From a virus, in the IMG/VR virus record IMGVR_UViG_3300021961_010940, positions 1 to 20,818 of that record: a stretch of DNA of 20,818 bases; one strand, written 5' to 3'. Positions 1,445-20,300 of this stretch are shown here, one piece after another. The position numbers and the translations under genes were made by a program. Every line of letters starts with the position of its first letter. Position 1 is the stretch's first letter. Below the pieces are notes generated by a model. It made no database searches and was not told the origin of the DNA. It saw only the letters and a program-made list of their open reading frames with translations.

Positions 1445-1888
1445 TTATAATATTTTCTTCAATGACATTAATTTGCTATCAAAGTCATGGAATGGAGAAG
1501 AAGCATATTGCAAATTCATCTCATCGAACTGTGATTCCTCATCTGGAGTATGAATATCAAAATAGAATGATCTGCCTTTTTTGCCTAGCAATTTGAACTT
1601 ATGCATGAGCAAGAAAGCGGCGGCTCCTAAATCTGTGACAAATTTGTTCGATTCAATCGTAAAAGGATATTCTTCGAGTTTTTTGAGTCCCATAAGACAA
1701 TGATCAAAATAGTGGAATTCACTAAACAAATATGCTGTTTTTAAATCTTCAAATTCTTTCAGCTTTTCTTTAGCAACCTTGAAAATAAAGGTTTTTTCTT
1801 TTCTTCCAGCAAGTTGATACTGATGCATAAGTACATAAGCAGCAATACCAAGGTCCTGTACTGGCTTGGAAACAATTTCTTTATTCAT
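1445..1888 (-). CDS. Tandemly duplicated DUF5659-like protein
   Basis: This 147-residue protein is an internal duplication. Residues about 7-70 and 80-145 align through the pattern DLG-x-AA-[YF]-x-LMH, then L-x-G-[RK]-K, a F-x-F strand, S-x-FH-x-FD, and LM-x-LKK. The pattern (an 'AAYLL' helix, a short basic hairpin with F-x-F, then a C-terminal 'LKK' helix) resembles the DUF5659 family, small single-domain proteins I associate with phages; that match is from memory. Two copies in one chain suggests a pseudo-dimer. Molecular function is unknown. It follows the actin-like gene by 16 bases and precedes the partial left-edge gene by 16 bases, so the three are probably one transcript. The nearest purine-rich ribosome-binding sequence (GAAAGG) is rather far (about 13 bases) from the ATG. 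Confidence 0.85.
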   Translation of the reverse strand: MNKEIVSKPVQDLGIAAYVLMHQYQLAGRKEKTFIFKVAKEKLKEFEDLKTAYLFSEFHYFDHCLMGLKKLEEYPFTIESNKFVTDLGAAAFLLMHKFKLLGKKGRSFYFDIHTPDEESQFDEMNLQYASSPFHDFDSKLMSLKKIL

Positions 1889-1904: not shown

Positions 1905-2912
1905 TCAATTTGCGTTTTCTGCCGCTACGAGGCAACCTCTAGCGACACTAAATAATGGATCTGCGGGTCTAATGACCTCTCCCACAGGAATAGAAAGCTC
2001 TGCTGTTTTCAGAGTTTCAGCGAAAATTTCAGTGAAGCCAGTAGCACTAGCAGTTCCTCCGGCTACAATGAAATCTACTGGATTTTCAGATTTGACTGCT
2101 TTTTTTGAATTTGCAAGTCCTTCTTTAATACCAGTAATAGTTTTCTCTATCATCAAACGATATTGAGTGATAATTGCTCTTTCTACGAGACTACTTGGTT
2201 GTTTGCCCAAATCAACTTTCATTTTCTCTTTATTAATAAAAGTTGGGCTTTCTCCTGTTGCTTTTGCTGCTTGTTTGTCTATCCAGTCACCAGAGTTTAC
2301 AATGGCAAATTGAAATATTGGAGCGCCATACATAGCATAGCATACATTAACCATGCCTGCGCCACAGCTTACGCCAACACCAGTGAATGCTTTTTTAGCT
2401 AGTTCTGCATAAACAAGTGCTAATGCTTCATTAATTGGTTTGGCCTCAACTTTGAAACCATCATCTGATTCATAGCCCTTAAATATGGCTTCAAGAACTT
2501 TAGTATGGTAGTCAGCGTCTGTTTCTTGGTTAATTGCATTTGCTGGCACGCTATAGTAAAGCTTGGTTCCATCTTTACTAATTGGATCAATTAGACTGTG
2601 GGCCATGATTGACATTATTTGAAAAGCATCTTTCTCTTTTGGATTAACACATCCATCTTTCATAGGTCTTTTCAATTCCAACGATGGGAGTGTGTATGCC
2701 ATATTAACGGCTGATTCTCCCAAGGCATATGCTACATTTTCTCTTTCTATTAGAGGCACTCCCGCTTGTTTCATCATGTTAAAAACAAATCGGTTTTCTA
2801 GTGGCAAGTCAATAAATGCATTTATTTCACGTTTATATACAAAATTATTTTTATCATCCCTTTTGCAAGACACTAAGTTCCATGTGCCAAAATCAAAGCC
2901 TACACTAGACAT
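1905..2912 (-). CDS. Actin/MreB/Hsp70-fold ATPase homologue
   Basis: This is a 335-residue actin-superfamily protein. In order it has a phosphate-1 loop GFDFGTWN at residues 5-12, a connect-1-like helix PINEALALVYAE at 159-170, a phosphate-2 region GVSCGAGMVNV at 180-190, an MreB/Hsp70-like NSGDWID stretch at 206-212, and an adenosine loop VAGGTASATG at 283-292. The length suits bacterial or phage actins, which form filaments that move or position DNA. An ATG at 2972 would add 20 residues overlapping the upstream gene. I prefer the ATG at 2912 because phosphate-1 then sits at the N-terminus as is usual, and AGAGG lies 5 bases upstream. The phosphate-2 loop lacks the usual leading Asp (it reads V-S-C-G), so ATP hydrolysis may be altered. 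A filament role is inference; a chaperone-like role is possible. Confidence 0.85.
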   Translation of the reverse strand: MSSVGFDFGTWNLVSCKRDDKNNFVYKREINAFIDLPLENRFVFNMMKQAGVPLIERENVAYALGESAVNMAYTLPSLELKRPMKDGCVNPKEKDAFQIMSIMAHSLIDPISKDGTKLYYSVPANAINQETDADYHTKVLEAIFKGYESDDGFKVEAKPINEALALVYAELAKKAFTGVGVSCGAGMVNVCYAMYGAPIFQFAIVNSGDWIDKQAAKATGESPTFINKEKMKVDLGKQPSSLVERAIITQYRLMIEKTITGIKEGLANSKKAVKSENPVDFIVAGGTASATGFTEIFAETLKTAELSIPVGEVIRPADPLFSVARGCLVAAENAN

Positions 2913-2920
2913 AAAGACCT

Positions 2921-3157
2921 CTACTTTCCAAAATTTATTTTTTTTGATGGGCCGAAATCTGGAATTTCCCACTGAACATCGTCATCAGATTTCTTGATAA
3001 TTTTCTTTGTTATCTCATTTCCTGTATCTGTTGCATCAATAGAAGCGATTCCTCCATTTTGATTTAAATTAATATTCAAATCAAGCTTTAAAGAAATAGT
3101 CACTTCGCCATTTTGTGAAACTACTTTAACAGTATTTGGTGTAATTAATTGAGCCAT
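2921..3157 (-). CDS. Small protein of unknown function upstream of the actin-like gene
   Basis: This 78-residue protein looks beta-strand rich in its first half (alternating V, I, L around ISLKLDLNINLN). It then has an acidic and Asn-rich middle, and a basic end with D-F-G-P-S-K-K-I-N-F-G-K. It has no signal peptide or membrane segment, and I recognise no family. It ends 8 bases before the actin-like start, so the pair is likely co-translated; a filament partner or regulator is possible from position only. It does not look like a ribbon-helix-helix ParR protein. A TATAAATA site lies 25 bases before its ATG, inside the end of the upstream gene. No strong Shine-Dalgarno is seen. Confidence 0.75.
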   Translation of the reverse strand: MAQLITPNTVKVVSQNGEVTISLKLDLNINLNQNGGIASIDATDTGNEITKKIIKKSDDDVQWEIPDFGPSKKINFGK

Positions 3158-3180: not shown

Positions 3181-4131
3181 TTATTTATATGAATCAAGTA
3201 GTTTTTTCCAGCCTTTTTTAATCATTTCGGGACTTATTTCTTCCAAGCATGGTTTTATTGTATCTGTTGTTCTTGGACAATTGTTGTAATTGAAACATGG
3301 GCCGCAATCTTCAATATTATTTGCATTATACTTTTGGACTACTATACATTTTGAATAGTACTTACAAATTTCATATCCACTTGTGTAAGAAAATATTCCA
3401 AGAGTTGGTATGCCATATCCGCCAGCACAATGTAAATGACCAGTGTCAGTAGAAACAATTAAGTTACAAAAATTTATAAGCGACATACTTTCTTGCAAGT
3501 TTAAGTTGCATATTTGTGGTATTTGTAGTTGGTTTAATTCTAATATAGGCACATTGTGATGGCCGATAAGAAAAAATTCCTGAGTCATTTCTTGTACAGA
3601 TTTCATTTGAAAAAAAAGTAAATTTTTTGCGCCAATAGCTGAGTGCGGTGTAAAACATACCAATTTTTTATGACCATCCCACCCTTTAGATTTCAGTATT
3701 TCAATTATTTTTGTATAATTTTCCTTATAATTTGGCATAAACATATTATGATTTAATAATTTTGATCCCATATATTCTGCCCATATATCTGCTCTATTTT
3801 TATCTGTTTGTTTCTTTTTTGACCATTCATACTTTGTACATGAATATGTTAAGTTGTAAACAGCCAAGTAATTTTCAAAATTAATTTGATTATGAGGTAT
3901 TAGATTTTTCACATATGGATGTTGCGCTGCTGCAGGAAAATACCCGTGTGGCAAAGCCCAATCAAATTCAAATTCTGGATATTTATTTTTGAGATCTTCA
4001 AATATCATTCTCATATTTAGTATATCGCCATATCCGCCTGAATCTCTTAATATGAGAATTTTGTTTTTAATTTGATTAAATTTATTGAATTCTAATTCAG
4101 TTTTATTTTTTTTCAAAGTGATAAGTTTCAT
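3181..4131 (-). CDS. GT9-type (heptosyltransferase-like) glycosyltransferase
   Basis: This 316-residue protein has the two-half layout of GT-B glycosyltransferases of family 9 (ADP-heptose transferase relatives). The N-terminal half opens with strand ILILR followed by SGGYGDILN at residues 31-39, the acceptor-side glycine loop typical of GT9. The C-terminal half has STDTGHLH at 227-234, matching the family's D-[ST]-G-x-x-H donor-site motif, followed by AGGYGIPTLGIF at 236-247. Near the end, C276, C279, C285 and C295 form the C-x2-C...C...C cluster that many GT9 proteins carry. Expected role: transfer of a sugar from a nucleotide donor; sugar and acceptor are unknown. As a phage gene among structural genes it could modify virion proteins or host surface glycans. 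A terminator precedes it, so it needs its own promoter or read-through; none is clear. Confidence 0.85.
   Translation of the reverse strand: MKLITLKKNKTELEFNKFNQIKNKILILRDSGGYGDILNMRMIFEDLKNKYPEFEFDWALPHGYFPAAAQHPYVKNLIPHNQINFENYLAVYNLTYSCTKYEWSKKKQTDKNRADIWAEYMGSKLLNHNMFMPNYKENYTKIIEILKSKGWDGHKKLVCFTPHSAIGAKNLLFFQMKSVQEMTQEFFLIGHHNVPILELNQLQIPQICNLNLQESMSLINFCNLIVSTDTGHLHCAGGYGIPTLGIFSYTSGYEICKYYSKCIVVQKYNANNIEDCGPCFNYNNCPRTTDTIKPCLEEISPEMIKKGWKKLLDSYK
3182..3189 (-). promoter_or_regulatory. Possible T4-type late promoter (TATAAATA)
   Basis: The minus strand reads TATAAATA, the T4 late promoter consensus, 25 bases before the ATG at 3157 and overlapping the stop codon of the upstream glycosyltransferase gene. 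The spacing would leave a short leader. In DNA this AT-rich several such octamers are expected by chance, so position is the main argument. Confidence 0.35.
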
Positions 4132-4194: not shown

Positions 4195-4755
4195 TTATGT
4201 GTAGCAAACTGATTCGATGCTCGAAATTACTTGATAATTTACTGTGCTGTCTGTAGATGTTAACGATAGGCTAGAAAGAACCATATCTCCATTGTTGAAG
4301 ATCTGAGTATTGCCCGCACCTAATGGGAAAGTAGCAGCAGCTAGTCCATTTAGGGCAACATTTGCTGTGCCACTATTAATTGTGATTTGAGCAAAACTAG
4401 CATAACCACCACCAGAAGCTGTGAAATCAATACTTGCTGTTGCGCCTGAAGCTACTGTTGAAGCATATACAGCGGGGAATGTGTTTTCTCCGGGCTCTGT
4501 TGAGTAAATGCTTCCGTCATCTGTGACTACCTCAATAAAAGCTTGATCATGAGGAAGTTGAGGGTAAGCATATCTTTTCCAGTAGTTGCAATCAGTAAAT
4601 GTGCTTCCATCTACTAATTCACGATAAGTGCCGTTTGGACCAGCTACAAACATAGTTCTCTGATAAGAGGCACCACTCCTAAGACCAGAGCTGATGACAT
4701 AACTATCTAGTTTACCCATATATTGATTATCAAGCACTACTTTGAATACGCTCAT
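4195..4755 (-). CDS. Probable abundant virion structural protein
   Basis: This is a 186-residue protein with no recognised family. Residues 1-95 look like a compact alpha/beta domain with Y-W-K-R-Y-A-Y-P around 58-65. Residues about 95-186 are rich in Ala, Gly, Ser and Thr and look like a beta-sandwich, ending near V-C-Y-T. Composition and codon use (more GCT, GGA and ACT, less Lys and Ile) differ from neighbouring small genes and fit a highly expressed particle protein. It is a single-gene unit with a TATAAATA site about 40 bases upstream, a strong AAGGAG (4762-4767) 6 bases before the ATG, and its own hairpin terminator. That set-up is typical of abundant late proteins such as decoration or fibre-tip proteins, but which one is not shown by the sequence. 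Confidence 0.85.
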   Translation of the reverse strand: MSVFKVVLDNQYMGKLDSYVISSGLRSGASYQRTMFVAGPNGTYRELVDGSTFTDCNYWKRYAYPQLPHDQAFIEVVTDDGSIYSTEPGENTFPAVYASTVASGATASIDFTASGGGYASFAQITINSGTANVALNGLAAATFPLGAGNTQIFNNGDMVLSSLSLTSTDSTVNYQVISSIESVCYT

Positions 4756-7572: not shown

Positions 7573-10500
7573 TTACTCTCCAAATATTTCGCCAACATCT
7601 GGTTTTACAGCGTTGTTTTTATCTTGTACTCTTAAAATATTATTTTCTTCTGTTTGTATTTTAACAAAAGGTATTTCAGATATTGCTTTCGAAATAAAAT
7701 CAGAAATTTCTCTATTTTTAATTTCTTGACTCATTTCGCCAACCACATCAACTTGAATTGGCATATTAATTTCTTCGGTTATAATTTGTGGTTTTGCAAG
7801 TTTATTTTTTATATCGTCTAGATTTAAATGAATGTGAGGTGCTCTGCCTAATTTAGAAAATTTCTCTTCAAAACTGAAAGCAAAAGATACAGAGCAATCT
7901 GTAGTAGCAGTTTGTCCAAAAGTGCTTCCTGCGAACGCTGGCTGTTGACAACCACAAATTGCTCCTTCGACTGTAGGGCAGTAATCAGTTTGTGTCCAAG
8001 CTCCAGGAACAGCCCAAGTCCATCCGCAAGTACCACAAGATCCACCTCCACCTCCGCCGCCACCATCACCAGCACACTCTTGAGGTTTGCAAATTGGCGG
8101 AAGTCTTCTTGTGCAAGGTGTTTGGGTTGATGTTTCGAGAACTGGAGGAGCATCTGGATAGGGGCATGCACATTCAACACAGCACCGAGTATTTACTTCA
8201 TCCCCATTTGTGTCTGCATTACAAGGGATCGCAGAATCGCCAAATAAAGCATCGTCTGGCTTTCTACACTTGCAACTACCATCTCCTTCAAGATCAGGAG
8301 CGCACACTGCATTATTTACTAATCTCCACCCTATGCCATTAAGACACAACCACCCACAACATGGCTCTACATCAAGTTCTATGCCCGGACATGCACTTGG
8401 AACTCCATTTGCATCTAGGGGGCCACATGGTTCCCCAAATCCACCTTGATGAACCCATTTGACTTCTCCTAATACATCCATAGCAGTCCAATTGCAAGTG
8501 CCACAACCTTGAGGAGCAGGAGTTGTAGTTGTTAGACAAGCTCTTTGCAAATGTTGTCCAGCATTTCCGGGAGGAGTCGGTGGTACACCAGGACAGTCAC
8601 AGCCGGGAAGTCTTACTGGCGGGAAGACAGTTGGCAAATAGTCATGACAATAATCTATAGCGGAAAGAGCCCATTCATATGGACCGACATCAAGTATACA
8701 AGGCAAGTCAACCAGTTCTCCATTTGCTGGATTTGCAGGGAATGACCCTGGGAACTGATAATATGCTGCCACCCAATTTAAACAAAGGCCAGATGCACCG
8801 CAATTAGCACCACATGGACCATTTTTGACTAATGTATAAATTTTATTTACAGCATCATATTGATATCTACATGCTGTTTGATCATCACATGTAGGATTAT
8901 CAGCAACGTATACACAATTTCCACATCCAGATGGTCGACCAGTAGTGCCTGGAACTGGTGTTGTAGTCACACAACATAATTGAACCAATTCATCTGGATA
9001 TAAAATTGGCACATTCGGCTCGTCTGGAGGGCATTCGCAACCTGCAAGACAGTAATTTGTTGGGCCTTCCCATTCGCCATCCAAAGCTAAACCAGAAACT
9101 CCATAACAATAACAGAAATCTTTATATTCATCTCCGTCATTTGGATTTACTGGTAACAGATTAACCATTTGCTCTGGATCTAAACATTCGCAATCAGGGC
9201 ATCCGGGGCATCCCAAAGAGTCGTCTAAAACCCATCCTGTCCCAGCAAAATAAGTGTAAACACAATTTGTGCCTGTTCCACCACACACAGTTGCATTGAA
9301 AACATAATCACAATAACCACACGTACAGCTAGGAGCAGGAGTTGTAGTAGTTGCACAAAATAAAGTTGCATATCTATCATCCACAATATCTCCACCATAA
9401 GATGGAGGTGGCGGACATTCGCATCCAGGCTGACAATCATCAGAAATGAACTGCCAATGTGGCTCACTGAGACAAGGCAAGTCTCCAGAAATAAATGGAT
9501 CAACATCTGGGACTTCAGGCAATTCGCCTCTTGCAATTCTTACTTCCACTGATTCGCATTGGCAACTAAGTCCATTTAGCTTGAAACAACTGCCGTTGAC
9601 AAAAGACCACGCTGCATTTTCGTACTTATAAATACAGTAATTTTTTGATGTATTGTCTATTACAGAGCATTCGTCATATACCCATTCATAATAACATGTG
9701 CCGCAATCTCCTCCAGGTGTTGGTGTCGGCGTGGGTGTAGGTGTAGGTGTGGGTGTAGGTGTGGGTGTGGGGGAAGGGCTAGGCGAGGGCGGTGTAGGCG
9801 AGGGCGGTGTAGGCGAGGGCGGTGTAGGCGAGGGCGGTGTTGGCGAGGGTGGTGTAGGTGAGGGTGGTGTAGGTGAGGGTGGTGTTGGCGATGGCGGTGT
9901 TGGCGATGGCGGTGTTGGCGATGGCGGTGTTGGCGTAGGTGTTGGTGTCGGCACTGGGCAATCTTGAGGCCTTTGCCCAACTGAATAACCTATTTTTACG
10001 CAAACTCTACTGAAAGTAAAACTTGTGGTACTTGGGGCAATAATATAAAACTTCCAAGGACTTGAATTCAGCGCTTCGCCTGTAAATGTTCCAAGATCTC
10101 CCCCATATGACGGAGCTGGAGCGGGTTCTACTAAAGTTACTCTTCCAGCCGATCTGCTGTTGTTATTGCCATTAGGGGATGGTCTATATTTGCCACTTGT
10201 AAGAGCACCTACAGAATAAATATCAGATGTGCCTGTATCATCAAAATTTATATTTATGGGACCAGAAAAAGAACCATGAGTCGATGAACTTCCCATAAGT
10301 AGAACTGTAGATCCAGCCCCACTTTGTAATAAAAACTTTATAGAGCCATAATCGCCTTTTGTAATTTGGAAATTTGTAATTTGTACAGTAACATTATTAA
10401 TTATTGGTTCGTCGCCTGGACATAATGTACAAACATCTGTTGAGTATGGATATTCTGTTGGAATGCCATTAACTACTGAAACATTAAAATCACAATTTAC

Positions 10501-11547
10501 ACATATATTTGTATTTAAATCTATTCCAACTGGTGTAATTATAATTTCACTTGGAATGTATACTGGAGTAATTACAATAACACTTGGAATATATGGGACA
10601 TTCAAGAATGGAATTGCGCTTGGAATAGGAGGAGTAATAGTGATTTGTGATGGAATTTGAATAGGGCCGAATGGTCCTATGTCCAAACATGGAAATATAA
10701 TTGGCGGAAACTGCAAGTCATTATTAGTATTTACACCAGGTTCACATCGAAGTGGGTCGGGAGGAGGCACATCAGGAACTGGAACTGTTAAATCTAATGG
10801 AATAATAGGTACTAAAGGCTCATTTACTTCAGTCCTTTCTATGCCTGTAGTAGTTATTTCGCATCTTGCAGATACTACTGTTACTGCTGGGTCTACTTTT
10901 ACATTAGGAGCGTATCGGTGTGTGCCGGAAATATTAGTTGTAGTTGAAGTTCCATCCCCGAAATCAATCAAAAATGATTGATATTCTCCAGTGATAATAA
11001 GGTTATAAAATATTAATGTGCCAGTAACGTTATCTTGGCTTAAAGTATAGAAATAAAATGTTACATCAGCGCAAAAGTCATCAACTATAGGATCTAATCT
11101 TGCTAAGTTTCTTATTCGCCAGTCTAATGTTTCTTTGACAGTTGAGTTTTCGACTCCAACAAAATTTTCAAGGTTAACAATAGCTCTTGCAAGTTGATTA
11201 TGATGTTCAGCTAAAACAAACCCTCTTACATATGTGCCAGCAGCATTGAATTTTGTGTGAGATCCGCCTAAATTTCTGATACATCCTAAGAGTCTGATAA
11301 TTTTTCCAGTAGCGTAATCTTTTTCGACGTTATCATAATATATAAGTTCCCCATCAATATTAACAAATCCATTGTCTGCCCAAATTTCAGGTTTGTTAAG
11401 ATCGACTGGAACTATGCCAATTTCAGTAGCCCATGCTTCAAGATTTTCACTTAAAGTGGTTTCTGAGGTGTTATAGACCTGAAAAAGAGTGTAGTCTGAA
11501 TCGTACTCTTTTGGGTATAAAACTTGGGGCGGATAACTTATAGCCAA
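7573..11547 (-). CDS. Giant modular tail/fibre adhesin with PKD, P-domain-like, Pro-stalk and Cys-rich modules
   Basis: This 1324-residue protein has, in order: an N-terminal module shared with the two upstream genes, with AEHHN at 113-117; a PKD-type domain with DFGDGTS at 195-201; a Pro-rich linker with repeated IPSxIxITP (about 298-341); a beta-sandwich at 384-520 resembling a proprotein-convertase P-domain (NFDDTGTSD, then LGTFTGEALNSSPWKFYI); a Pro/Thr/Ser stalk at about 531-612; five Cys-rich modules (about 613-1220) each opening CGxC, three joined by TTTTPAP or TTTPVP linkers; a Gly-rich run; and a non-repetitive C-terminus. The start is TTG at 11547, supported by AAAGG 6 bases upstream and the 10-base gap to the previous stop. 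Such composition suits an elongated virion appendage that binds host surface polymer; target unknown. Cys density implies disulfides or metal binding. Confidence 0.88.
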   Translation of the reverse strand: MAISYPPQVLYPKEYDSDYTLFQVYNTSETTLSENLEAWATEIGIVPVDLNKPEIWADNGFVNIDGELIYYDNVEKDYATGKIIRLLGCIRNLGGSHTKFNAAGTYVRGFVLAEHHNQLARAIVNLENFVGVENSTVKETLDWRIRNLARLDPIVDDFCADVTFYFYTLSQDNVTGTLIFYNLIITGEYQSFLIDFGDGTSTTTNISGTHRYAPNVKVDPAVTVVSARCEITTTGIERTEVNEPLVPIIPLDLTVPVPDVPPPDPLRCEPGVNTNNDLQFPPIIFPCLDIGPFGPIQIPSQITITPPIPSAIPFLNVPYIPSVIVITPVYIPSEIIITPVGIDLNTNICVNCDFNVSVVNGIPTEYPYSTDVCTLCPGDEPIINNVTVQITNFQITKGDYGSIKFLLQSGAGSTVLLMGSSSTHGSFSGPININFDDTGTSDIYSVGALTSGKYRPSPNGNNNSRSAGRVTLVEPAPAPSYGGDLGTFTGEALNSSPWKFYIIAPSTTSFTFSRVCVKIGYSVGQRPQDCPVPTPTPTPTPPSPTPPSPTPPSPTPPSPTPPSPTPPSPTPPSPTPPSPTPPSPTPPSPSPSPTPTPTPTPTPTPTPTPTPGGDCGTCYYEWVYDECSVIDNTSKNYCIYKYENAAWSFVNGSCFKLNGLSCQCESVEVRIARGELPEVPDVDPFISGDLPCLSEPHWQFISDDCQPGCECPPPPSYGGDIVDDRYATLFCATTTTPAPSCTCGYCDYVFNATVCGGTGTNCVYTYFAGTGWVLDDSLGCPGCPDCECLDPEQMVNLLPVNPNDGDEYKDFCYCYGVSGLALDGEWEGPTNYCLAGCECPPDEPNVPILYPDELVQLCCVTTTPVPGTTGRPSGCGNCVYVADNPTCDDQTACRYQYDAVNKIYTLVKNGPCGANCGASGLCLNWVAAYYQFPGSFPANPANGELVDLPCILDVGPYEWALSAIDYCHDYLPTVFPPVRLPGCDCPGVPPTPPGNAGQHLQRACLTTTTPAPQGCGTCNWTAMDVLGEVKWVHQGGFGEPCGPLDANGVPSACPGIELDVEPCCGWLCLNGIGWRLVNNAVCAPDLEGDGSCKCRKPDDALFGDSAIPCNADTNGDEVNTRCCVECACPYPDAPPVLETSTQTPCTRRLPPICKPQECAGDGGGGGGGGSCGTCGWTWAVPGAWTQTDYCPTVEGAICGCQQPAFAGSTFGQTATTDCSVSFAFSFEEKFSKLGRAPHIHLNLDDIKNKLAKPQIITEEINMPIQVDVVGEMSQEIKNREISDFISKAISEIPFVKIQTEENNILRVQDKNNAVKPDVGEIFGE
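8512..8529. repeat. Exact 18-bp direct repeat in linker, copy 1
   Basis: AGGAGCAGGAGTTGTAGT occurs here and again at 9331-9348, in both cases coding (minus strand) for the TTTTPAP linker between Cys-rich modules. The copies are 819 bp apart, two modules, in the same reading frame. Confidence 0.85.
9331..9348. repeat. Exact 18-bp direct repeat in linker, copy 2
   Basis: Second copy of the 18-bp linker repeat described at 8512-8529. In-frame recombination between the copies would remove exactly two Cys-rich modules. Confidence 0.85.
9716..9771 (-). repeat. 6-bp repeats coding for a Pro-Thr dipeptide tract
   Basis: A run of GGTGTA/GGTGTG-type hexamers encodes alternating Pro and Thr (minus strand) on the C-terminal side of the PPSPT array. 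It is much richer in GC than the surrounding DNA. Confidence 0.85.
9781..9930 (-). repeat. Ten 15-bp tandem repeats coding for PPSPT units
   Basis: Ten consecutive 15-bp units, e.g. AGGCGAGGGCGGTGT on the plus strand, encode the PPSPT stalk on the minus strand. Variants are grouped: four identical units (9781-9840), one intermediate (9841-9855), two identical (9856-9885), three identical (9886-9930). This pattern indicates recent local duplication by slippage or unequal exchange. The unit length keeps the reading frame, so copy number can change without breaking the protein. Confidence 0.93.
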
Positions 11548-13778: not shown

Positions 13779-14807
13779 TTATGTTACCATGATAGTTTCA
13801 GTTAAAAATACTCTTAGTACTCTTTGTCCTACAAGTTCAATTAATACTGAAGCATCATAAGAGCCGGGATTTTCATATTGATGCTGTGCTGTATGTATGT
13901 TTGGATTTGTTATCAAAGAAGTCGTTCCATCTCCAAATTGCCACAATCTATTTGTAATTTCCGCTCTAGTCTGATCAACAAACAAAAAATTTGTTGGCTC
14001 CATGTTTGATTTGGCTGCCGTTTTTTTTGAAACACCTACAAGTGGGCTTGCGTATGTAAAAGGCAAAGCATAATCATTTGCAACGCTGATGTATTCTTTT
14101 TTTGTTGTAAATCCTTGAGCACCCAAAGCTGTTATTACTCTAAATGTAATAGTATAATTGCCTGGAGCTTCATACGTATGAGTTGGATTCTTGTCAAATG
14201 AACTGCCGCCATCTCCAAACTCCCAAAAGAATCTAATCGCATTTGAATTACTAAATGTATGGAAGTTAACAGTAAGAGGTGGAGCGCCAACAGTTGGAAA
14301 AGCTCTGAATAATGCTTTAGGGGAAAGTATTTTTGATTCTTGAATCTTGAGAAGGCCAGTCAAAGTATCTTCTCCAACTGCTTCCTCAACACCTAAATAT
14401 GTTTCAAGATTTATAATTGCATCTTTTATTGAGTTATGATGCTCAGCCATAACTCCAGCTTCTACTGCTGTTCCTACAGGCCAAACACTTTGTTTTGTTG
14501 AACAAAAGCCTCGTATTAGTTGTGTAAAAGTATTATTTGTTCTTTTATTGTAATAAACTAATTCAGAATTTAATCCTATTTTATCTCTCAGAAAAAGTCT
14601 CAATATTCCTTTCTCTGGAAATTTTAGAGCATCATTATCTGGTACAACAATAAGTTGATCACTGACTGAAATGAATTGTAATGTTTTGCTTGAAGCAAGA
14701 TTTTTAGCTTCGTACAATGTTTCATAATTATCAATAGCGCTTTTGTAAACTGATAAATCACCAGCTACATAACCTGAATCATATGATGTTATTTTTTCTA
14801 TTGCCAT
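13779..14807 (-). CDS. Two-PKD tail/fibre protein (shortest paralogue)
   Basis: This is a 342-residue protein. It has the shared N-terminal module with FPEKGILRLFL at 63-73, E-L-V-Y-Y at 82-86, a RGF turn at 99-101 and VMAEHHNSIKDAI at 119-131. The region reads like the small beta-barrel found in many phage structural proteins ('P-x-x-G-x-I...E-x-I-x-Y...RG...GT'), followed by a helix. PKD domain 1 is at about 163-243 (FFWEFGDGGSS at 193-203, APGNYTITFRV at 214-224). PKD domain 2 is at about 272-341 (LWQFGDGTTS at 288-297, NPGSYDASVLI at 313-323). It has no catalytic motif. It starts three bases after the TAG of the coiled-coil gene. This is likely the ancestral-size version of the two larger downstream neighbours. 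Confidence 0.88.
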   Translation of the reverse strand: MAIEKITSYDSGYVAGDLSVYKSAIDNYETLYEAKNLASSKTLQFISVSDQLIVVPDNDALKFPEKGILRLFLRDKIGLNSELVYYNKRTNNTFTQLIRGFCSTKQSVWPVGTAVEAGVMAEHHNSIKDAIINLETYLGVEEAVGEDTLTGLLKIQESKILSPKALFRAFPTVGAPPLTVNFHTFSNSNAIRFFWEFGDGGSSFDKNPTHTYEAPGNYTITFRVITALGAQGFTTKKEYISVANDYALPFTYASPLVGVSKKTAAKSNMEPTNFLFVDQTRAEITNRLWQFGDGTTSLITNPNIHTAQHQYENPGSYDASVLIELVGQRVLRVFLTETIMVT

Positions 14808-14810
14808 ATA

Positions 14811-15458
14811 CTACTTATTCTTTTCTGTTAGCTTTTTTTGATTCTCTATTAATGCAGAAGCAAATTGATTTTTGATTGGAGCTGTATCTGGAAGACTTAA
14901 AATAGACTTTGCCAACTCTGGATTTATTGGATGTCCAAGCAAAGTATATACATTTAGTTCGTATTTGAACTTTGTATTCCAATACTCATTTTGCGCTGTT
15001 TGATTATCCCAATCTAATACTTCATAATCTTTTGTCAAATTGTTAAAAATTTCGAGTATTTTATTTGATTCTGCAAGTATAACTTCTTTTTTTTCATTAA
15101 GTTTTGAAAGAGTATTCTCTAATGTTTTTAACAATCTTTCTTTTTTTCTAACTACTATTTCTATTTCTTTTGCTTCAATAAATTTAATTTCAAGTACGTT
15201 TGATTTTGGAAGTCTTAATTTTGTCTTTTGAATTTTTAATTTTTGCAACTCAATATTATCTTTTGCTTGTTCTAATTCAAGTTCTAGGTTCTGAAGAGAC
15301 TCATATCTATTTTGTAGTTCTCTAATACATTGCCAAATTTTAGATTGTTTAGTGTATTCCTTGCCAATCATGAAATTTTCTATCTGAAAATCAGAATGCT
15401 TAGATGAAACTTTATGTTTGCTTACTACTTCTTTTATTTTTTCTACTATTTCGCTCAT
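14811..15458 (-). CDS. Coiled-coil protein, probably tail-associated
   Basis: This is a 215-residue protein. A short helical N-terminus is followed by a long coiled coil from about residue 40 to 140, with two Leu/Glu/Lys-rich heptad stretches broken by R-L-P-K-S-N near 82-87, so probably an antiparallel hairpin. The C-terminal 70 residues hold LDWDNQTAQNEYWNTKF and an LLGHPINPELAKSILSLPDTAPIK stretch (here split in description), which looks like a small conserved domain. I recognise no named family. It lies between the glycosyltransferase-like gene and the PKD genes with 1- to 3-base spacings, so it is expected in the same complex or assembly step. A chaperone or tail-assembly role is possible. 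It ends with TAG. Confidence 0.8.
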   Translation of the reverse strand: MSEIVEKIKEVVSKHKVSSKHSDFQIENFMIGKEYTKQSKIWQCIRELQNRYESLQNLELELEQAKDNIELQKLKIQKTKLRLPKSNVLEIKFIEAKEIEIVVRKKERLLKTLENTLSKLNEKKEVILAESNKILEIFNNLTKDYEVLDWDNQTAQNEYWNTKFKYELNVYTLLGHPINPELAKSILSLPDTAPIKNQFASALIENQKKLTEKNK

Positions 15459-15459
15459 T

Positions 15460-15978
15460 TCATACGTCTAAAGCCTGTACTATTGCTTTAAACTTTGCTC
15501 CTTTCGTAATCGCTCTATCAGCCCATTCTAATTTAGTTAATTTCAAATCATTTCCTGTCAAGAAATTGCCTACTGTATTAAAGAAGTTTTTATTCAATAA
15601 AAGACCATTCACAGACCCATCAACAAAATTCCAAACTCTATCAACAACAGGAAAAATTACATCTGAAAAATTATTGATATATCTTGATAATTTTGTATCT
15701 ATATTTTTCTTTATAGAAGTCCCTGAAAATATAAAATACAACCATTCTGCTTTTGCTTTATTAAAAGATTCGTTAATCATACATGTTATGCAGTTATTTG
15801 ACTTATATGTTGGATAATAAAATTCTGATAACGATGAATTTTGCGGAATGACCACAAAAAACTCATACTTGTTATTAAAATTTACAAAACTTTTAACCGT
15901 GCGATCTATATTTTTAGGCGAACCATCAAGGCAAAGAAGAACAACTTCCATGTTGATATCTTTTGCTGCATAATACAT
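15460..15978 (-). CDS. Minimal GT-A glycosyltransferase-like protein
   Basis: This is a 172-residue protein. Residues 10-45 (MEVVLLCLDGSPKNIDRTVKS, then YEFFVVIP) look like the first beta-alpha-beta of GT-A family 2 enzymes. NESFNKAKAEWLYFIFSGTSI at about 88-108 stands where those enzymes have 'N-x-g-x-x-x-A-x-G-e-W-x-x-F-l-D-x-D'. Here the metal-binding Asp residues are replaced by Ser-Gly-Thr, so catalysis is doubtful. DVIFPVVD and a later 'gllLNK-x-F-F' piece fit the acceptor part. It is short for an active enzyme (typically 230 residues or more). An internal Met at residue 10 could be the true start, but neither start has a strong ribosome-binding site. Gene spacing is 3 bases upstream and 1 downstream, inside a tail gene run. 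Activity and target are unknown. Confidence 0.5.
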   Translation of the reverse strand: MYYAAKDINMEVVLLCLDGSPKNIDRTVKSFVNFNNKYEFFVVIPQNSSLSEFYYPTYKSNNCITCMINESFNKAKAEWLYFIFSGTSIKKNIDTKLSRYINNFSDVIFPVVDRVWNFVDGSVNGLLLNKNFFNTVGNFLTGNDLKLTKLEWADRAITKGAKFKAIVQALDV

Positions 15979-15981
15979 GAT

Positions 15982-16821
15982 TCATACCAATGTGACTTCG
16001 AAATCGATCTTAATTATGTCATCAGCGGTGACTGCATTCAATAGCGCAAATCCTAAACCATTTGGATATTCCGTAAATTTATTAAGTTTCCAAGTTGGGT
16101 TATCACTAAAACTCGGATAATAAACTTCTGAATCATTAAAAATTCTAGTTCCATTTATGAATACCTTAAGAGAGCCTTCTCTAAATGGGGAACTAATATT
16201 AGTCAAATAGTCAAGATAGTTCGGACTTAGGTCTCGACTAATTGGCGTTATTCCATCATAGTGCTCATGAGGATTTGATAAACTAGATGTTACTTCTGCT
16301 TTTACAGTTTGATTATTTGCTACTGTCCAAGTTATAGTTGTTGAATCTTCAAAAGTTAAAATTCCATTATCTATGTAATCGATGCCAGAAGGAGTTGTAA
16401 ACCCTACACTAAAGTTTTTTGCTTCATTTGCTATAAGAGTTAATTTATCTCTTTCTGCTTGAAGCATTCTAACGAAAGGAACTGGATTAACTAAATCTGG
16501 AAAACCAAGTCCTTGCAGCGTTGCTAGAAATTCTTCAGTAACTTCATAAGTGCTATCTTGGTGCGCTCCAATATTATGTAAAGCCGCATCAACACCAGAC
16601 GCTTTGAGATTACCATTATCTTGCAAAGATTGAGCAAGCCTTAAAGCCAAACTACCCGCAGTTCCAAATGAAGCTTGTAATTCTGCGCTATTTACATCAA
16701 CTTGATAGTTAATGATATCTTCACGACGAACTAAAGCGGCAATCGGTAAATTGTCATAAGTATAATGATAAGGCTGATTGCCTTCGTACTGTGGTACTAC
16801 AACTTGATTTATATCTGGCAT
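15982..16821 (-). CDS. Phage tail/baseplate-periphery protein
   Basis: This is a 279-residue protein. The N-terminal half is helical and polar (ELQASFGTAGSLALRLAQSLQDNG near 47-70, SGVDAALHNIGAH near 76-88). The C-terminal half is beta-rich, with H-E-H-Y-D-G-I-T-P-I near 187-196 and a hairpin LKVFINGTRI near 222-231. That 'x-V-F-I-N-G-x-R' turn is common in phage tail-fibre and baseplate proteins. The last residues, DDIIKIDFEVTLV, look like a final strand. No family name can be given with confidence. Its ATG is 15 bases after the previous stop and no good Shine-Dalgarno is seen. Its position next to the gpI-like gene supports a baseplate or fibre attachment role. Confidence 0.75.
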   Translation of the reverse strand: MPDINQVVVPQYEGNQPYHYTYDNLPIAALVRREDIINYQVDVNSAELQASFGTAGSLALRLAQSLQDNGNLKASGVDAALHNIGAHQDSTYEVTEEFLATLQGLGFPDLVNPVPFVRMLQAERDKLTLIANEAKNFSVGFTTPSGIDYIDNGILTFEDSTTITWTVANNQTVKAEVTSSLSNPHEHYDGITPISRDLSPNYLDYLTNISSPFREGSLKVFINGTRIFNDSEVYYPSFSDNPTWKLNKFTEYPNGLGFALLNAVTADDIIKIDFEVTLV

Positions 16822-16836
16822 AATAACATATTTATG

Positions 16837-17313
16837 TTAAATGTAATTAATTCTCCAGTTAAAAGTAATTTGAATTTGATCAGTTTTATTCAAATCAGCG
16901 AAAGTAGTCATACTATATAAGTCGCCATTATTAAGAACCAAAGCCATTTCATTAATGGCATATCCATTTGCATCAGCATAAGATAAAACAGTTGTAAAAA
17001 TAGCTTGAGTAGGGTTTGTAGTATCAATATTACTTATGACAGATTTTTCTGCAACTGTAGCACCATAAAGACCAGTTCTGCTAGTATTCACCAGTTTTAC
17101 TTGCCCGCTTTCTGTGCCTCCAGTACCGAAAATCATACGCATGACATAAAAATTTGTATAATCTCCTAGCTCATTAGTAATTGTCTTTGCTAATGCTATT
17201 CGACCTAGTCGTAATACAGTATTTTTAACAGTCCAAGATTTTTTATTTCCTGACTTATCTTCTACTGTTATGTCAACAAATCCTTGTGATTCAATGTCAC
17301 TGCTGCTTTTCAT
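16837..17313 (-). CDS. Tail/fibre-associated structural protein
   Basis: This is a 158-residue protein of a type seen in large phages beside baseplate genes. The order is WTVKNTVLRLGRIALAKTI (27-45), MRMIFGTGGT (58-67), a strand pair with TRTGLYG, then GYAINEMALVL and LYSMTTFADLNKT, ending QITFNWRINYI. The pattern 'GR-x-x-L ... FG-x-GG ... INEMAL' reads as a beta-rich structural domain; I recall similar phage proteins but not a reliable family name. Its ATG overlaps the stop of the gpI-like gene by 4 bases (ATGA), with AAGGGG about 9 bases upstream, so the two are tightly coupled. No membrane segment, cysteine or enzymatic motif is seen. Confidence 0.75.
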   Translation of the reverse strand: MKSSSDIESQGFVDITVEDKSGNKKSWTVKNTVLRLGRIALAKTITNELGDYTNFYVMRMIFGTGGTESGQVKLVNTSRTGLYGATVAEKSVISNIDTTNPTQAIFTTVLSYADANGYAINEMALVLNNGDLYSMTTFADLNKTDQIQITFNWRINYI

Positions 17314-20300
17314 TTTATTTCCCCTTTTTCGCTTGTACCATCTTTTCTTTCAATGAAGAATGTTATTGAGTCAGATTGCATTACTTTTTCAGATATGCCA
17401 GGATCTTGCCCTTGTTGTTGGATTGGCAAATTATTATTTCCGCTCATGCTTTCTAAGTTTAGAGCAAATGAACCAGATCCTGTTTCTACCATATAATTTA
17501 TTACCTCTTGTCCATTTCTGCTTATGTCATATAAATCATATCCAAAAAATGCTGCAGAAGATTTGTCAAATTGAAGTAAAGTATAATTTTCTAATGTGCC
17601 AGCAGTATTTGTTGTGCCCCAGTTGTTAAAGTCTCCACCTATTCTTAGGCAATTATCAGAATCAACTTCGTAGTCTATAAAGTAATATGGTATATCATTT
17701 ACAATAAGTATATAATTTTCTTTGAAGTTTTGTGTATCAATAAGTGTTGTATCTGGATTGTCAAATGTAGGCCAAGAACCTGGTTTATAAACTTTCATGC
17801 CGTAATATGACAAACTTCCTATTGTATTATCAACTACTCTTTGTAAGATTTTACCTGAGAAGGTGCCGCTTCCTGAATTCCACCCGCTAATAAAGAATGA
17901 AGCAGCATCTGTGGAATCAAGACTATAAAATTCGTATTGAGTCGAATCAGAATCTTTGTAGAAATAAGTTGAAGCACTCACAAAGTCAGAAATATCTACA
18001 ATTCCTAAACCAACACTAGGTGTAACTTTTGCAATAAGTTCTACAGTATATGTTCCATTAGTAGAAGTAACAATGCCTTCATCAGAAGCGTTTAATAATT
18101 CAAATTCAACTCCTGTGGCAGCTACATCACTAAGTGTTCCATCATTTTCCAAAGTGAATATATTGTTTACGAAGCTTAAAATGTTATATGTAATCTCAGT
18201 AGATACAATTTTTATCTTCCAGCAATTAGATGCATATCCATTTGCAACGTCCCACAAAGATTTGATATCATATTCACTAAAATCTATTGTATTATCAAAT
18301 ATTTTATACATATTTGATTTTGTAATTACAAAAGAAGTATCACTTATTGTAATATTTGATATTCTAAATCCAAACGGAGAATCATTAATAAGTTCTGGTA
18401 ATGTTTCAACGATTTCAATATAATTTTTACGAGCATTTGTTACAGTATATTCTCCAGAATATATATTTGGAGATAAAATTTCTAGAAGTGTATTTGATGC
18501 TGTTTTAGTAATTCCAACTCTCTCAAAATTAATTTCCGAGCAGAATAAATTGATATACTGATTAAAGAACCGAGTAGAACCAGTTTCTAAAGTGGTTTGG
18601 GTAGCTAAAGCATCTCTCAGTACTTCATTTATTCCTGTACCTTGGAACATAGATCTATTAAATAAAACTTGTGCCATACCAGCAATTACAAATTCAGAAC
18701 CTTTATAGGTCAACAACATTTTGATATTTTCTTCTGGTGGCAAAACGAAGTCATGAAATGTGCCCTGGAAATTTAAGTTGTTTAAAGTTGCATGAAATGG
18801 AATGTATTCATTGATAATATTAATGCACTCTGTAATTCTAAATGTAGATAAACTATCTATTTCTACATCTAAATCAAAATACGGACTTATTGTAGATCTG
18901 CAAGGTTCAAGGAAATCTTTATCAATATCACATGGATTTGTACTATCTCTTAAGCTGCCATTATATTCATCCATGTTATAAACATTTTCACTATATGGGA
19001 ATATTGTTCTCACTTTGCCAAACTTAACATCATTGTAGAATGGATTCTTAGTTGATACAATTATGCTGAACATGGGATCAAGTTCAGAAATTAATCTTGT
19101 ATTCCAGTCCTTCTTTGGATAATCAAAATATTTATCATTTCTTGAATCAGCTAAAGGCAAAGTGAGAATGTAATCATGTATGTCAATTTGATTTTGATTT
19201 TCAAATGGTTTTATTTGATAAGTTATTTTTATATGGTCCCCATTGTTTAATGGAGCCCCAACCCAAACCATAGTGCTTACACCATTCGAGGTTGTAATTT
19301 TTATATTTGAAAGTGGAGCAAGTGCATAATCATCATATCTTGTTCTATATTCAAGAATAAAATAAGCATCTACTACAGATAAAGATACTTTAGTCAATTC
19401 AAAAGAATTCAGACCAGTATATTGAAAACTCTCAGTAAATACAAAGTCTGAGCCTGTAAGCCAAAGCTGATCATATTTTAGAAGTCTTATATTTGCTTCA
19501 GATAATGCGTGTTGTAAAGCACCGAGAGTACCTTTTCGTTTAAACTTAGGAATAGCTGTTTTTATTTGTCTGCGCCATAATGTTGGATCATTCGTTCTTA
19601 AGTTGAGTCCAAATAAATTTGCCAAGTAAACTAATAAAGGCTCCTGTACTACATTCGCATCCATCAAAAATTCCATTTGAAGTGCAAGATTTTCAAGTAC
19701 TGTAAATCCTTGTGCAATAGATTTATTTAAATTGTTTATTGTTTCTACACTTATATCTTCTTTGGCATAGTTTAGTTTATACATTTCAGGAGTATAAACA
19801 TCTAATAATTGTTCATACTTGTTTGCAGGCACTAAGTTGCTTGGATTTGTTACTTCGTTCTTTACATCACTACCAACGTAAAAGTGTATATAATCAGAAA
19901 GAGTATCAGACCCAAATTCTGGGGTCCATGTATAACACAAATAAAATTCGCCTTCTCGAACTGAACCATCTGGAGACCAAAGAAATCTAAATATGCCATT
20001 CTTTATAATTCCAACTGGATCTGACACTTTCTTTATTATTGAATTTGTGTTGTCTCCATATCTGCTCCAAATAGGATCAGAGTCGGATCCTGCTTTATAA
20101 ACTACATCAGTTTCTGAATAATAAATTTGATTTGACACTATAGATGCATCAAGTTGATATTTCAAGTTTTGAGCAGCAATATAGTCTTCCTCGGTCTGTG
20201 TTTCTGCCCATTTTTGAAAAGCCTCTGCATATCTTCGTTGAATATTCAAATCATATTCTTGAACAATAGTAGATTGATTTTTTACTGCATTTAAGTTTCT

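Follow-up and report, generated by a model that had tools for sequence, protein, structure and literature searches.

A volactin-family actin gene and its small partner gene in very large bacterial viruses

Very large bacterial viruses of two lineages encode a volactin of their own, whose gene in one lineage almost always lies beside a tiny partner gene. The example analyzed here comes from an IMG/VR virus record of 20,818 bp, the whole of which is referred to as the window. It belongs to clade I, which comprises relatives at 64-86% identity, the window protein included. To judge from sequence and predicted fold, the 335-aa window protein is a member of the volactin family with an actin fold. 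On balance, it is probable that this phage-borne volactin polymerizes in the infected cell, with a 78-aa protein as its dedicated adaptor or regulator, and that the pair provides a cytoskeleton for the phage in the late stage of infection. The relevant features of the window are as follows.

1445..1888, minus strand: 147-aa gene downstream of the actin gene, made up of a ~66-aa repeat in two copies; third cassette member
1905..2912, minus strand: volactin-family actin-like ATPase gene, 335 aa (PF25216 match and AlphaFold2 fold)
2343..2381, minus strand: phosphate-2 loop GVGVSCGAGMVNV, residues 178-190; Ser182 codon at 2367-2369, where MamK has Asp161
2921..3157, minus strand: small partner gene, 78 aa, acidic (pI about 5.2), with homologues upstream of the actin gene in clade I
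2924..2971, minus strand: conserved C-terminal motif W.IPDF...KI.FGK of the 78-aa protein (alignment A3)
3181..4131, minus strand: GT9/heptosyltransferase-like gene (PF01075, E 7e-7)
4195..4755, minus strand: 186-aa gene, a conserved neighbour whose family occurs in 69 clade I loci
13779..20249, minus strand: tail/baseplate genes (Pfam and PHROGs matches)
13779-14807 and 16837-17313, minus strand: baseplate-wedge-like genes (phrog_2885, E 4e-5; phrog_9521, E 7e-6)
17310-20249, minus strand: Tail_P2_I protein gene (PF09684, E 4e-6)

Family, fold and distribution of the phage actin

The actin-like gene of the original prediction was recovered on the minus strand, with its ATG at 2912 and its end at 1905, and the DFGT (residues 7-10), VNSGDWID and AGGTASATG motifs are all found in the encoded protein. 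Its identity as an actin-fold ATPase is backed by both the Pfam Volactin match and the predicted structure. Residues 4-331 match PF25216 with an E of 2.4e-64, covering profile positions 3-321 of 321; the score of 218 bits is well over the cut-off of 35, which is loose when taken alone, as a MamK-like control scores 40 bits. The AlphaFold2 model, built from a 49-sequence alignment, has an actin fold (mean pLDDT 93.1, pTM 0.90), and the nearest PDB folds are MreB, MamK (5ljv, TM 0.71-0.73), BeeR (8r2n, TM 0.69-0.72) and actin. Neither a PHROGs search nor a single-sequence search of the PDB returned a match for the protein. The phosphate-1 Asp (D7) and the catalytic Glu (E162, aligned on MamK E143) are both kept, and the nucleotide-site residues are strictly conserved. 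The dN of the actin gene is about 0.12-0.15 with dS at about 2 or saturated, leaving dN far below dS.

In the phylogenetic tree, volactins split from MreB/MamK at 100/100, and the volactin branch holds 52 rows, archaeal and bacterial sequences included. The 335-aa protein falls outside the MreB/MamK clade and carries Ser in place of the phosphate-2 Asp, and membership in MreB/MamK was rejected on these grounds; its score against the NCBIfam MamK profile is 32 bits, where the cut-off is 400. An Hsp70-type chaperone was likewise rejected: no PF00012 match was found at E<=1, and all 335 residues lie within the actin-like core, leaving no substrate-binding domain. The suggestion that the protein might be a non-filament chaperone is thus less likely, the more so because its closest folds, MreB, MamK, BeeR and actin, are filament formers.

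An alignment-based scan of IMG/VR found relatives of the 335-aa actin in 512 viral stretches, from records of up to 595 kb. LR756511 (595 kb) is in clade I, at 63% identity. A second group, clade II, is about 32% identical to the window protein and includes LR745208 (485 kb). Phage clades I and II are each monophyletic at 100/100 and are placed among cellular volactins. Haloarchaeal volactins on Natrinema and Haloarcula plasmids score 466 and 447 bits against PF25216 and carry the Ser; a single-sequence scan of viral contigs with a haloarchaeal volactin returned no relatives. Strong volactin matches occur in 5/148 Nitrospirota genomes, in 5/145 genomes belonging to the same phylum as an Omnitrophota MAG, and in 3/74 genomes from the phylum of a Saganbacteria MAG. 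Two further Nitrospirota matches just over the cut-off were left out of the count because one that was checked (L140) is MamK-like and has the Asp.

The cellular genes have settings of their own. In the Saganbacteria MAG and a relative from the same phylum (L085:1579-9126, L187:1441-9242), volactin lies inside a gas-vesicle gene cluster that also holds several GvpL/GvpF genes and a Cdc48-like AAA ATPase. Among the Nitrospirota volactins (L148:5902-9204, L147:5755-8346), one adjoins a class A penicillin-binding protein gene and another is two genes from a MinD/ParA-like gene. Genomes from the phylum of the Omnitrophota MAG (L183, L184, L185, L188) have volactins in adjacent pairs, with up to four copies per genome.

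The partner gene and its genomic setting

The actin gene had been described as paired with a small upstream gene, and this holds: the 78-aa gene runs from 3157 to 2921 on the minus strand, 8 bases upstream of the actin gene. A homologue occupies the same position and strand in 79 of the 80 clade I loci where there is space for the gene, most at a spacing of -4 to +16 bp. The 147-aa family is present in 82/83 clade I loci, usually as the next gene, and the two halves of the 147-aa window protein are 41% identical (E 1e-16). Across these loci, the actin gene and the 78-aa gene are conserved as a unit of two, followed downstream by the conserved 147-aa gene as a third. No recognizable homologue of the 78-aa protein was found in clade II; the genes upstream of actin there are different and unrelated, so the small partner is a trait of clade I.

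The 78-aa protein is predicted to be disordered on its own; AlphaFold2 run on it alone gave a pLDDT of 60.5 and a pTM of 0.19. The middle part of the sequence varies between homologues and the C-terminal motif is conserved, with P66, F68, F76 and G77 invariant and D67, K73 and K78 nearly invariant in alignment A3. Among the ORFs fetched, the motif is limited to ORFs of similar small size. The dN of the small gene is 0.31-0.45 with dS at about 2 or saturated, again far below dS, although dS is near saturation in the comparisons of both the small gene and the actin gene.

The original prediction also placed the actin beside structural genes. This is correct at the scale of the module, as the stretch at about 13.8-20.2 kb holds baseplate and tail genes, but the nearest neighbours are the GT9-like gene and genes of unassigned function. 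The GT9-like gene lies upstream of the cassette and is a conserved neighbour of it in 61 clade I loci. In 7/7 clade I records searched, a gene for the terminase large subunit is found about 9.5-15 kb downstream of actin; these records are related to each other and do not count as independent observations. The Terminase_6N profile had no match in clade II records, and the clade II neighbours include weak virion-structural matches. Within the tail-side gene run of the window, positions 7573-11547 encode a 1324-aa protein with a high content of Cys and of PSPTPP/TPTP repeats.

No DNA repeat array was found beside the operon, and the gap to the upstream gene is only 23 bp. A DNA-segregation cassette of the ParMRC/AlpAC type with a neighbouring centromere was rejected, there being neither repeats nor room. 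DNA is not an obvious cargo because no adaptor-binding DNA array lies beside the genes.

The phosphate-2 loop

The phosphate-2 segment of the 335-aa protein is FTGVGVSCGAGMVNVCY, and the Asp reported missing from it is indeed absent. A HMMER alignment of the family profile with the solved MamK chain 5jyg, along which MamK residue numbers were counted, puts S182 on D161 and E162 on E143, and hhalign comparison with MreB/MamK-like proteins agrees in placing S182 at the Asp position. No other Asp takes the aligned site in either profile alignment. Compensation by D209 or D212 was rejected, as both are common to MreB/MamK and hence are not extra. In the model, S182 would close strand 178-183 ahead of the GxG turn, like the Asp of the canonical hairpin.

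S182 is invariant in 83/83 aligned viral sequences and is therefore neither chance nor sequencing error. Ser, Asn189 and Glu162 are present in 60/60 volactin rows (14 from phage clade I, 21 from phage clade II, 23 from three bacterial phyla and 2 from haloarchaea), and Asp is present in 5/5 MreB/MamK-like controls. The phosphate-1 Asp occurs in 59/60 volactin rows, the remaining row being a truncated sequence. The window protein also has the phosphate-2 signature derived in the present analysis, S-x-G-x-G-(M/L)-x-N. The missing Asp had been presented as a peculiarity of the phage protein, and this finds no support: Ser is in every volactin examined, cellular and viral, and a phage-specific loss of Asp was rejected accordingly. 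On the sequences compared, the Asp-to-Ser change in phosphate 2 is a family-wide trait of volactins and no defect of a single virus.

A point against a phage volactin filament is that changing the equivalent Asp in MamK (D161A) abolishes filament dynamics (PMC5059902). The Asp-to-Ser change in volactins probably does not mean that no filament is formed, since dynamic filaments of the Haloferax volcanii volactin have been seen in vivo (PMC10869688). By analogy, the altered loop would be compatible with filaments provided that Haloferax HVO_2015 shares the Ser, which is itself seen in other haloarchaeal volactins. Volactins offer a clean test of actin nucleotide turnover without the phosphate-2 Asp because phage and cellular members all lack it.

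Some phage volactins contain inteins (L084:5369-7507, L113:5998-8211, L117:6004-8088, L118:5965-8088), with Pfam Intein_splicing matches accompanied by LAGLIDADG or HNH matches. In the phosphate-2 loop, one intein site precedes C183 and another follows N189 (P0001 numbering); a further one lies before the GDWID motif.

Proposed function and relation to known systems

By analogy with Haloferax volactin, the phage volactin most likely polymerizes in the infected cell. The 78-aa protein may bind the actin through its conserved C-terminal motif, regulating the filament or coupling it to cargo. The position in the tail/terminase region suggests action late in infection, when the cytoskeleton might place genomes or gather parts for particle assembly. 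Coupling to a DNA cargo in the manner of ParMRC is not supported because the genes have no repeat array beside them and only the 23-bp upstream gap. A more far-reaching proposal, which is possible but rather doubtful, is that a volactin cytoskeleton organizes infected cells in two huge-phage lineages without detected PhuZ-type tubulin, through a nucleotide cycle lacking the phosphate-2 Asp on which filament dynamics depend in other actins, and with control by a disordered, peptide-type adaptor in clade I.

Other roles would account for part of the evidence. PilM, for example, binds an N-terminal peptide of PilN. The phage protein might similarly be a non-filament assembly factor with an actin fold, one that binds ATP and the C-terminal peptide of the small protein as a switch-like platform and aids tail or head assembly. 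Proximity to the tail and terminase genes, the predicted disorder of a partner whose short terminal motif is conserved, and the absence of the Asp that supports hydrolysis elsewhere are all consistent with such a factor; it is nonetheless unlikely, given that the closest folds are filament formers, that no Hsp70 or PilM Pfam match was found, and that dynamic filaments are known in vivo for the characterized volactin (PMC10869688). Packaging of the protein as a structural component of the virion or tail would fit a gene in the late region, but is highly improbable: the strict conservation of nucleotide-site residues suggests an active NTPase, and we know of no tail protein with an actin fold.

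It is also conceivable, if quite improbable, that the phage volactin manipulates the host by co-polymerizing with or displacing a cell-shape actin, thereby altering wall growth or cell shape. Cellular volactins do occur in several bacterial phyla, one of them next to the class A penicillin-binding protein gene, and haloarchaeal volactin affects cell shape (PMC10869688). However, volactins are rare in the sampled bacteria (strong matches in 5/148, 5/145 and 3/74 genomes), and phage-specific conserved partner genes point to a role internal to the phage. A phage cytoskeleton of volactin and its small partner is the reading we prefer over these alternatives.

The phage cytoskeletons known so far are tubulins of the PhuZ type and a few actins of the ParM/Alp type. 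If the preferred reading is correct, a further kind would be a volactin-type actin that is widespread and has its own dedicated small partner in some of the largest phages known. No mention of volactin-family actins in phages was found in the jumbo-phage reviews, the huge-phage paper or the volactin paper; the reviews and the huge-phage paper do describe PhuZ. The PhuZ tubulin of phiKZ-like jumbo phages is likewise a cytoskeletal NTPase of very large phages, but the likeness is one of functional analogy only, as PhuZ has a tubulin fold. A search for PF00091 tubulin-family genes gave no match in 12 distinct large actin-bearing records, some of which may be incomplete (11 from IMG/VR, LR756511 and LR745208, one IMG/VR record apparently being the same genome as LR745208); the same search recovered PhuZ of phiKZ as a positive control. 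A single-sequence search for chimallin of phiKZ, which is a weak test, gave no match in 11 large records.

AlpA/AlpC of prophage CGP3 in Corynebacterium glutamicum likewise combine a phage actin with a small, co-transcribed adaptor gene and serve as the precedent for such a pairing (PMC4446434). They differ in that the actin is of another family, a C. glutamicum control genome having no PF25216 match, and in that the adaptor binds DNA. AlpA binds sites beside its own operon, whereas the phage volactin cassette shows neither such sites nor space for them. MamK, BeeR and MreB are the nearest solved folds (TM about 0.66-0.73), and phage volactin keeps the catalytic Glu (MamK E143); MamK and MreB have the phosphate-2 Asp where phage volactin has Ser, and the tree separates them at 100/100. 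The volactins of Haloferax volcanii (VolA, HVO_2015, PF25216) and other haloarchaea belong to the same family over the full length. These are cellular archaeal genes and not phage genes, and two of the loci have no annotated 78-aa partner gene alongside. The haloarchaeal volactins compared are 33% identical to the window protein and carry the same Ser/Met/Asn signature in phosphate 2, and haloarchaeal volactin has a role in the formation of disk-shaped cells.
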